DNA from: Terriglobales bacterium
GTDB lineage: Bacteria; Acidobacteriota; Terriglobia; Terriglobales; Acidobacteriaceae
Assembly (NCBI GenBank): GCA_016185365.1
Contig: JACPNP010000060.1
Span: forward strand, 1 to 64,000
Length of the DNA: 64,000 nt
Reading direction: 5' to 3'
A program made the translations under genes and the position numbers. Of the stretch, positions 41,619 to 58,246 are shown piece by piece. The notes under the pieces were generated by a model. That model searched no databases, was not told the origin of the DNA, and saw nothing but the letters and a program-made list of their open reading frames with translations. Positions within the stretch are counted from its first letter, which is position 1. Each line of letters begins with the position of its first letter.

Positions 41619-41685
41619 GTACCGCCAGCGTCCCAAACGTACCGCCGGCGTCTCGCCGGCTGTGGCGGCGGCATCTTGCCGCCGC
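41619..41685. repeat. dispersed B-family double-hairpin repeat with partial tandem copy
   Basis: GTACCGCCGGCGTCTCGCCGGCTGTGGCGGCGGCATCTTGCCGCCGC; nearly identical at 45879-45929. Confidence 0.85.
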
Positions 41686-45812: not shown

Positions 45813-45860
45813 GGCACTGGAGCCTGCCCTGAGCGAAGTCGAAGGGCCCTCGGCTGTGCC
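45813..45860. repeat. dispersed A-family palindromic element, copy 1
   Basis: GGCACTGGAGCCTGCCCTGAGCGAAGTCGAAGGGCCCTCGGCTGTGCC; inner stem GCCCT/AGGGC, outer GGCACtG/CTGTGCC. Confidence 0.9.
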
Positions 45861-49750: not shown

Positions 49751-49918
49751 GGGGGCTGAATCTTCGATTCTAACAAACGTTGCCCGCTGCCTAACTGGAG
49801 TCTGGTGCCCCACGTTCGCGAAGCTAACGTGGGGCTTGTAACTGGCTATCCAAGAAAAGATGGTGCTACTCTTCCAATTTTCAATTACCCGATCATCGGA
49901 TTTGCAATCTAAGGGGTC

Positions 49919-50168
49919 GCACAGGAGCCTGCCCTGAGCGAAGTCGAAGGGCCCTCGGCTGTGCCGACCACTCCGTCTCCGCATGGTCCGGCACGAACAG
50001 TCGCATGACCGAAAAAGAGGGCGGCTTCAGCCGCCCGGCTAGGCCTCGATTAGGAACGGGGCTTCAGCCCCTTGCCTTGGTGCCCATGGGGGCCTGTCCT
50101 GAGCGAAGTCGAAGGACCTTCGGCTGTGTTGTTTCCCATCTGTGTGGCACAGCCGCCCTCGGCTGTGC
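49919..50168. repeat. hairpin island: two A-family elements plus three perfect hairpins
   Basis: A2 49919-49965; GGGCGGCT-TC-AGCCGCCC 50019-50036; GGGGCT-TC-AGCCCC 50058-50071; A3 50091-50128; GCACAGCCG-CCCT-CGGCTGTGC 50147-50168. Confidence 0.88.
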
Positions 50169-57041: not shown

Positions 57042-57136
57042 TGGTATGGGTCTTGGCCCCCGGCTCTCGGCTCTTTGTCTTATGTTTTGATTGTGATTTT
57101 GATTTTCAATTACCAGATTTCTCAATTACCCGATTA
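57042..57136. repeat. period-6 then period-8 array overlapping the murB stop
   Basis: GCCTTG GCCTTG GTATGG GTCTTG ... TTTGAT TGTGAT TTTGAT then ACCAGATT TCTCAATT ACCCGATT ATTCAATG. Confidence 0.8.
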
Positions 57137-58246
57137 TTCAATGGAACCGAATCCCACCATCACCGGCTCGCGCTGCAGCTCGATCCCCCATGCCTTCCGC
57201 ACGCCGGTGCGCACCTCTTCGCTGAATGCTGCGATCTCGGCCGCCGTCGCGCCGCCGCGGTTCACGATCGCCAGCGTGTGCTTCTTCGAGATGCCGACGC
57301 GTCCGCTTCCAAATCCCTTCGGGAATCCCGCATTCTCCACCAGCCATGCAGCCGAAAGTTTTGCCTGTCCCCCGCCCGCCGGATAGCGGGGCGGTTCGCG
57401 CTCCACACCCTGCTCGCGCGCCATCACCGCGACCTCGGCTGCTTTCTCGTCGCGCACGATGGGATTCTTGAAGAACGACCCCGCGCTGCGGCAATCGTCG
57501 TCACCGGGCACGATCAGCATGGCTTTGCTCTCCCGGATCTGGCGCACTGCGTCACGTGTCTCCTTCAGCGTCGGCGTGCCGGGATGGTTCGCAAAACGCT
57601 TTTGCAGGTCGGCATAGGCCATCCGCGGCGCGCCTCCCGGAGTCAAGGCGTAGGTCACGTGCAAGACGATGTACCTTTCTCGCTCCGTGGTATTGAAAAT
57701 ACTCGTACGGTAGGAAAACCCGCATTCGGCGTTGCTCAGTTCGCGCACTTTCAGGTTTTGCAGATCCAACACCCGCACCGCGACGATGGTCTCAGAGACT
57801 TCCTGACCGTAAGCGCCCACATTCTGCACCGGCGTTCCGCCCACGGTCCCGGGGATCCCGCTCAACGCTTCGACCCCGGCGCATCCGTCCTCGACCGTGC
57901 GGGCGACGAATGCGTCCCACTCTTCTCCCGCCCCGACGACATAATGCCTGGGTCCGTGTGGCACAGAAGCCTGCCCTGAGCGCGGTCGAAGGGCCCTGGG
58001 CTGTGCTGTGCCGTCATCTTCAATCCCCCGTATCCCGATCTTCAGCACCAGCCCCGGCCAGCCTTCGTCCGCTACCACCAGATTGCTGCCTCCGCCGAGT
58101 ACGAACAATCGCAGGTTGTTGGCCCGCGCGTGGATCACGGCATCGATCACATCCTTCTCGTCCTCAGCCTCCACGAAATATCGCGCCGGCCCTCCCACCC
58201 GGAAGGTCGTCATCGGAGCCAGTGGAACGTGTTCCTGGAGGTGCAT
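57134..58246 (-). CDS. murB: UDP-N-acetylmuramate dehydrogenase containing an in-frame A-family repeat
   Basis: LGGGSNLVVADEGWPGLVLKIGIRGIE ... YVVGAGEEWDAFVARTVEDGCAGVEALSGIPGTVGGTPVQNVGAYGQEVSETI. Confidence 0.93.
   Translation of the reverse strand: MHLQEHVPLAPMTTFRVGGPARYFVEAEDEKDVIDAVIHARANNLRLFVLGGGSNLVVADEGWPGLVLKIGIRGIEDDGTAQPRALRPRSGQASVPHGPRHYVVGAGEEWDAFVARTVEDGCAGVEALSGIPGTVGGTPVQNVGAYGQEVSETIVAVRVLDLQNLKVRELSNAECGFSYRTSIFNTTERERYIVLHVTYALTPGGAPRMAYADLQKRFANHPGTPTLKETRDAVRQIRESKAMLIVPGDDDCRSAGSFFKNPIVRDEKAAEVAVMAREQGVEREPPRYPAGGGQAKLSAAWLVENAGFPKGFGSGRVGISKKHTLAIVNRGGATAAEIAAFSEEVRTGVRKAWGIELQREPVMVGFGSIE
57956..58012. repeat. dispersed A-family palindromic element, copy 4, inside murB
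   Basis: GTGTGGCACAGAAGCCTGCCCTGAGCGCGGTCGAAGGGCCCTGGGCTGTGCTGTGCC; inner stem GCCCT/AGGGC, outer GGCACAG/CTGTGCC. Confidence 0.88.

Follow-up and report, generated by a model that had tools for sequence, protein, structure and literature searches.

An in-frame REP copy inside murB of a Terriglobales bacterium and related insertions in other acidobacterial genes

The murB gene, an essential gene of cell-wall synthesis that encodes UDP-N-acetylenolpyruvoylglucosamine reductase, carries a palindromic repeat inside its coding sequence in the window analysed here, a stretch of 64,000 nucleotides from an uncultured bacterium whose assembly comprises 2.38 Mb in 70 contigs and is ~89% complete (Table 1). 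The reading frame is open through all 370 codons, and in the profile search the protein is matched end to end by MurB families (FAD_binding_4, MurB_C and, above cut-off, the NCBIfam UDP-N-acetylmuramate dehydrogenase), in agreement with the initial annotation, which had described the frame as kept and the downstream part as intact. A genome search returned one murB match in the whole assembly, and the relatives of the protein found in the homologue search are acidobacterial. Residues that are invariant in a 43-row alignment, such as R180, S257 and E360, are retained.

REP-type hairpin repeats are usually intergenic in bacteria, and short palindromes tend to be regarded as extragenic. The repeat in murB was nevertheless found at the position where it had been annotated, within the coding frame. 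Of the span originally proposed, 57956-58012, the 51 bp from 57956 to 58006 belong to the consensus unit, GTGT-GGCACAG...GGCTGTGC, and the last bases, 58007-58012 (TGTGCC), lie outside it. In the plus direction, the murB copy reads GTGT GGCACAG AAG CCTGCCCTGAGCGCGGTCGAAGGG CCCTG GGCTGTGC, and it supplies 17 codons in frame, in line with the 17-20 extra residues that had been estimated. To map the insert on the protein, we used the 43-row alignment, in which residues 61-79 and 100-112 are filled in 42 of 42 orthologues and residues 81-96 in only 0-7 of the 42. By codon arithmetic, residues 81-96 correspond to bases 57959-58006, so the unaligned block falls within the repeat, as the proposed alignment check had anticipated. 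The segment that bears the insert has 27 residues in this MurB versus 7-20 (mode 11) in 88 orthologues, so equally long loops of unrelated sequence, which the initial annotation had named as the contrary finding, did not occur among them. The turn is naturally variable, and the present protein is the longest form seen in the comparison with these 88 orthologues. Solved MurB homologues likewise show a gap at the insert site. An exact empty site was not seen, because no same-genus genome without the murB copy was found.

The AlphaFold2 model of the insert-bearing protein (mean pLDDT 90.5, pTM 0.87) matches solved MurB structures and places the insert between strands 75-77 and 100-105. The insert is modelled with low confidence, with pLDDT <50 at residues 83-88; further low-confidence residues are 138-140 and 142-145. 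The loop modelling suggested at the outset thus predicts a disordered turn in an otherwise intact and confidently modelled MurB fold.

Table 1. Positions in the window of murB, its insert and related repeats.
Feature	Position	Strand	Remarks
murB (UDP-N-acetylenolpyruvoylglucosamine reductase, carries insert)	57134..58246	-	370 codons + stop; family matches; single copy
REP type A with core, 51 bp	57956..58006	+	in frame inside murB when read on minus strand
Codons of MurB residues 81-96	57959..58006	-	near-absent in orthologues, predicted disordered; coordinates by codon arithmetic
Inner core CCCTGAGCGCGGTCGAAGGG	57974..57993	+	core match search
REP type A with core	45813..45859	+	spacer
REP type A with core	49918..49965	+	spacer
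Diverged core-bearing REP	50084..50129	+	spacer
REP type A without core	50146..50167	+	core-less relative in window
REP type B (GTAG-type) without core	41640..41662	+	second palindrome type in window

The core CCCTGAGCGNNGTCGAAGGG has four matches in the window at ≤2 mismatches, against 0.01 expected from shuffled sequences, and the three core-bearing copies outside murB all lie in spacers, as had been noted. Genome-wide, the core CCTGAGCGNNGTCGAAGG occurs in 57 copies (≤1 mismatch), and its reversed control in none. A literature search found no mention of the core sequence itself. The unit is a hairpin in which the inner core CCTGCCCTGAGCGNNGTCGAAGGG is enclosed by an outer palindrome, and one core is common to three such palindromes: type A (GTGTGGCACAG...CTGTGC, the murB type), type B (GTAGCGCCGGC...GCCGGCTGTGGC) and type C (TAGCCCGGCAC...GTGCCGGG). 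The same core thus sits in the loop of all three, as though unrelated REP hairpins had acquired it by insertion or had swapped it among themselves (L001-L030, L076-L099). Types A and B also exist without the core, with 80 genome matches for core-less type A, a few of which are both strands of one site, and 29 for type B. Head-to-tail arrays of type A were also observed, with a unit of ~39 bp without the core and 63 bp with it (L092 C43; L160 C3:39406-39779; L029 C3:36101-36313). The tag before the stem is GTGT or GGGT in type A and GTAG in type B; lacking the GTAG tag, type A was not placed in the GTAG superfamily.

Arm pairs of type C change together between copies (GGCAC/GTGCC, GGGAC/GTCCC, CGGAC/GTCCG, CGCAC/GTGCG), and these compensating changes support the hairpin. 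Compared with shuffles, folding is strong for core-less type A (z -6.3) and type C (z -3.1) and weak for type A with the core (z -1.9). Weak values were also obtained for the murB copy (z -0.8 to -1.4), whose folding does not exceed that of shuffled sequences, implying that its hairpin has decayed. This copy also has its own core variant, GCGCGG, which none of the other listed core copies of the genome has. Type A units with the core typically measure 51 bp, a length divisible by three, and five of their six frames contain no stop codon, so that translation can pass through an entire copy.

The profile search gave 16 Y1_Tnp matches in the genome. Core-less type A REPs form inverted pairs around three of these genes (C66:40421-40669, C66:51671-51925 and C37:19138-19323), and type B REPs form an inverted pair around a fourth (C21:25290-25523). 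No inverted pair of core-bearing copies was found around such a gene in this genome, the inverted pairs being of core-less palindromes only, and the two core copies that flank C3:18766 have the same orientation. Inverted REPs around Y1_Tnp genes are the arrangement of REP-associated Y1/HUH transposases (RAYTs), from which we infer that the family is, or formerly was, copied by such enzymes. As the type A outer palindrome flanks RAYT-like genes, the murB repeat is assigned to the REPs and not to the Rickettsia palindromic elements (RPEs). Separately, the RAYT-like ORF on C21 extends across the type B REPs on either side, and these would give it REP-coded head and tail peptides (AGVPPAVAGASRPR... 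and ...HTTAGETPALQK; L070).

Searching the genome for the repeat inside coding sequences, as had been proposed, covered the regions surrounding repeat copies and revealed further in-frame copies in Ddl, TsaD, NrdJ (twice) and ValS. TsaD contains three tandem in-frame REPs, giving 53 residues versus 13 in 20 of 24 relatives. ValS contains a type B REP without the core, giving 34 residues versus 2 in 1gax; it also has, in the part that aligns between 1gax residues 203 and 206, a tandem peptide repeat, SQGAGLPAPNATP, of ~4 units, which is unrelated to the REPs (L172:1-3255). Neither of the two NrdJ inserts is present in the NrdJ stretch of the relative G080 (locus L370). The NrdJ reading frame is broken between them, which may reflect either misassembly or a genuine frameshift (L023, G000:C61). 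In Ddl, the REP-coded stretch lies in a segment of 36 residues versus 25-33 in closer relatives. We rejected a simple insertion there because in those relatives a variable segment of that length is native to the site, which points to a replacement with slight growth.

Among relatives, the core is patchy, being present in 32 of 101 genomes. Of 250 core copies examined in 13 acidobacterial genomes, 28 (~11%) lie in frame inside 26 family-matched genes; some of these matches are fragments at locus ends, below the full-length cut-off, with the family named by the best match. MurB, Ddl, TsaD and NrdJ represent the present genome, and 22 further genes come from relatives: RecG, MutM, an Lhr-like helicase and DnaE2 in G084; MutM, an Lhr-like helicase, DnaX, SelA, an SDR, a GlpC-like protein, a glycosylhydrolase and a HAD protein in G056; TrmD, BshB1, PcrA/UvrD and an ATP-dependent DNA ligase (twice) in G026; an Lhr-like helicase and a Ser/Thr kinase in G072; PrmC in G023; HpnE in G073; DnaE2 in G008; and a Dpp5-like protein in G067. 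The coding-bias filter was relaxed after it had missed several true in-frame cases. Many repeat-spanning ORFs were left out as spurious antisense frames or as N-terminal extensions upstream of DnaE, AccA, FolD, TrpB and PurL, and one more (L269) was left out of the count for lack of a family match. The 28 copies use the open frames unevenly (PALSEVEG 11, LRLRSGQ 7, PSTSLRAG 6, PFDSAQG 3, ACPERSRR 1; chi-square p 0.03), the rarest of the five being the cysteine-bearing one.

Replication and repair genes account for 11 of the 26 in-frame targets and for none of the 30 controls (Fisher p 5e-5), a p value to be read with a classification that is our own and post hoc, a neighbour-gene background that is imperfect and not corrected for gene length, and genomes that are related. 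As controls, 40 genes next to non-inserted copies were taken, of which the 30 with a family annotation were counted; targets were named by NCBIfam and controls by Pfam, and NrdJ was left out of the 11. The targets so classed are RecG, the Lhr-like helicase (three), DnaE2 (two), MutM (two), DnaX, PcrA/UvrD and the ATP-dependent DNA ligase (L240, L241, L243, L250, L251, L256, L263, L317, L331, L345, L375).

The initial annotation had likened the insert to RPEs. The likeness holds in behaviour: both are palindromes that lie in frame in conserved proteins, are read through and appear to be tolerated, here in a loop of an essential enzyme. Membership does not hold, since RPEs are Rickettsia elements of 105-146 bp (PMC2229807) and the murB repeat is 51 bp, resides in Acidobacteriota and has a RAYT-linked outer palindrome; by host and size it is not an RPE, and the resemblance is one of analogy. 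RPE-4 and RPE-6 are described as short CGTC-type repeats (PMC2229807 and PMC3733652). With REPs, the family of the murB repeat shares a hairpin-capable palindrome, a high and mostly intergenic copy number, and inverted copies of the outer palindrome flanking Y1_Tnp genes; as in RAYT/REP (TnpA-REP) systems, Y1/HUH transposase genes are flanked by inverted multicopy REPs, and what differs is that several REP types and the 16 Y1_Tnp matches occur together in one 2.4 Mb assembly. The murB copy further lies entirely inside the ORF of a known protein and is absent from orthologues, as an intragenic REP would be.

The closest precedent was described by Di Nocera et al. (2013). According to that report (PMC3733652), which treats RPEs as a related case, REPs occur inside genes, many of them repair genes; the GTAG/CGTC REPs lie in frame in conserved genes, sometimes two per gene, with UvrD, DnaE2, DNA ligase and tRNA-related genes among the targets, and the GTAG REPs are RAYT-associated. 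The acidobacterial repeats are alike in being multicopy in-frame palindromes with double hits, replication and repair targets and a RAYT link, but differ in that three outer palindromes enclose one common core and that type A carries GTGT or GGGT instead of GTAG. MurB, Ddl, TsaD, MutM, RecG, the Lhr-like helicase, DnaX, PrmC and TrmD are not named as targets in the available part of PMC3733652. Since intragenic REPs, including those in repair genes, were reported there in 2013 for other bacteria, the murB copy is a clean new example of a phenomenon that is already known but has received little study. As far as we have found, the phylum, the acidobacterial family, the targets MurB, Ddl, TsaD and MutM, the presence of one core within three outer palindromes, and the controlled look at repair-gene bias are new.

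We consider it very probable that the murB feature is a REP copy that inserted into this gene and has persisted there owing to its small burden. The unit would most likely have been copied as single-stranded DNA by one of the RAYTs of this genome, a step suggested because inverted type A REPs flank three such genes. A complete 51-bp copy would then be read through in frame, lengthening a naturally variable turn between two MurB strands by ~16 predicted disordered residues, and would be retained for its low cost. The insert would be a selfish element that is probably translated and harmless, with a near-neutral effect on the enzyme. The turn ranges from 7 to 20 residues among orthologues, so one might ask whether MurB simply has an ordinary long loop that resembles the repeat by chance or convergence; this is strongly disfavoured, to the point of being hardly credible, by the chance expectation of 0.01 matches per window, by the coincidence of the unaligned residues with the repeat, and by the same pattern in five genes of one genome. 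Misassembly of the metagenome could also have put a multicopy repeat into murB, given the fragmented assembly and the NrdJ frame break in the same genome. We regard this as quite improbable, because MurB is in frame on both sides, unlike a chimeric join, its GCGCGG core variant is private among the listed core copies, and similar inserts appear in independent assemblies.

Co-option, in which the insert alters how the host protein is regulated or how active it is, for instance through mRNA folding or as mutator repair proteins, and is kept by selection, draws on the excess of replication and repair genes, on the recurrence of MutM, the Lhr-like helicase and DnaE2 across genomes, and on a proposal made for other REPs by Di Nocera et al. 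(PMC3733652). For murB we judge it unlikely: MurB is no repair gene, its insert is predicted to be disordered, its hairpin has decayed, and the uneven frame use also fits purifying selection against cysteine-rich frames.

With retention at low cost as the preferred reading for murB, the sequences suggest that one REP family adds ~16-residue peptides to the essential enzymes MurB, Ddl, TsaD and NrdJ, and a sister type to ValS, all within a single small genome; the same family also reaches repair enzymes of relatives. The in-frame copies amount to dozens of natural loop-insertion experiments, and their peptides (LRLRSGQ, PALSEVEG) are recognisable and otherwise confuse annotation and alignments. 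On this sample, together with its control, the idea put forward in 2013 that repair genes are hit preferentially can also be tested. Tentatively, and with the odds somewhat against it, in-frame REPs may accumulate non-randomly in replication and repair genes across phyla, by target choice or as favoured mutator-like variants; if so, the Acidobacteriota would be an independent, countable case, and MurB, Ddl and TsaD would be the tolerated background.
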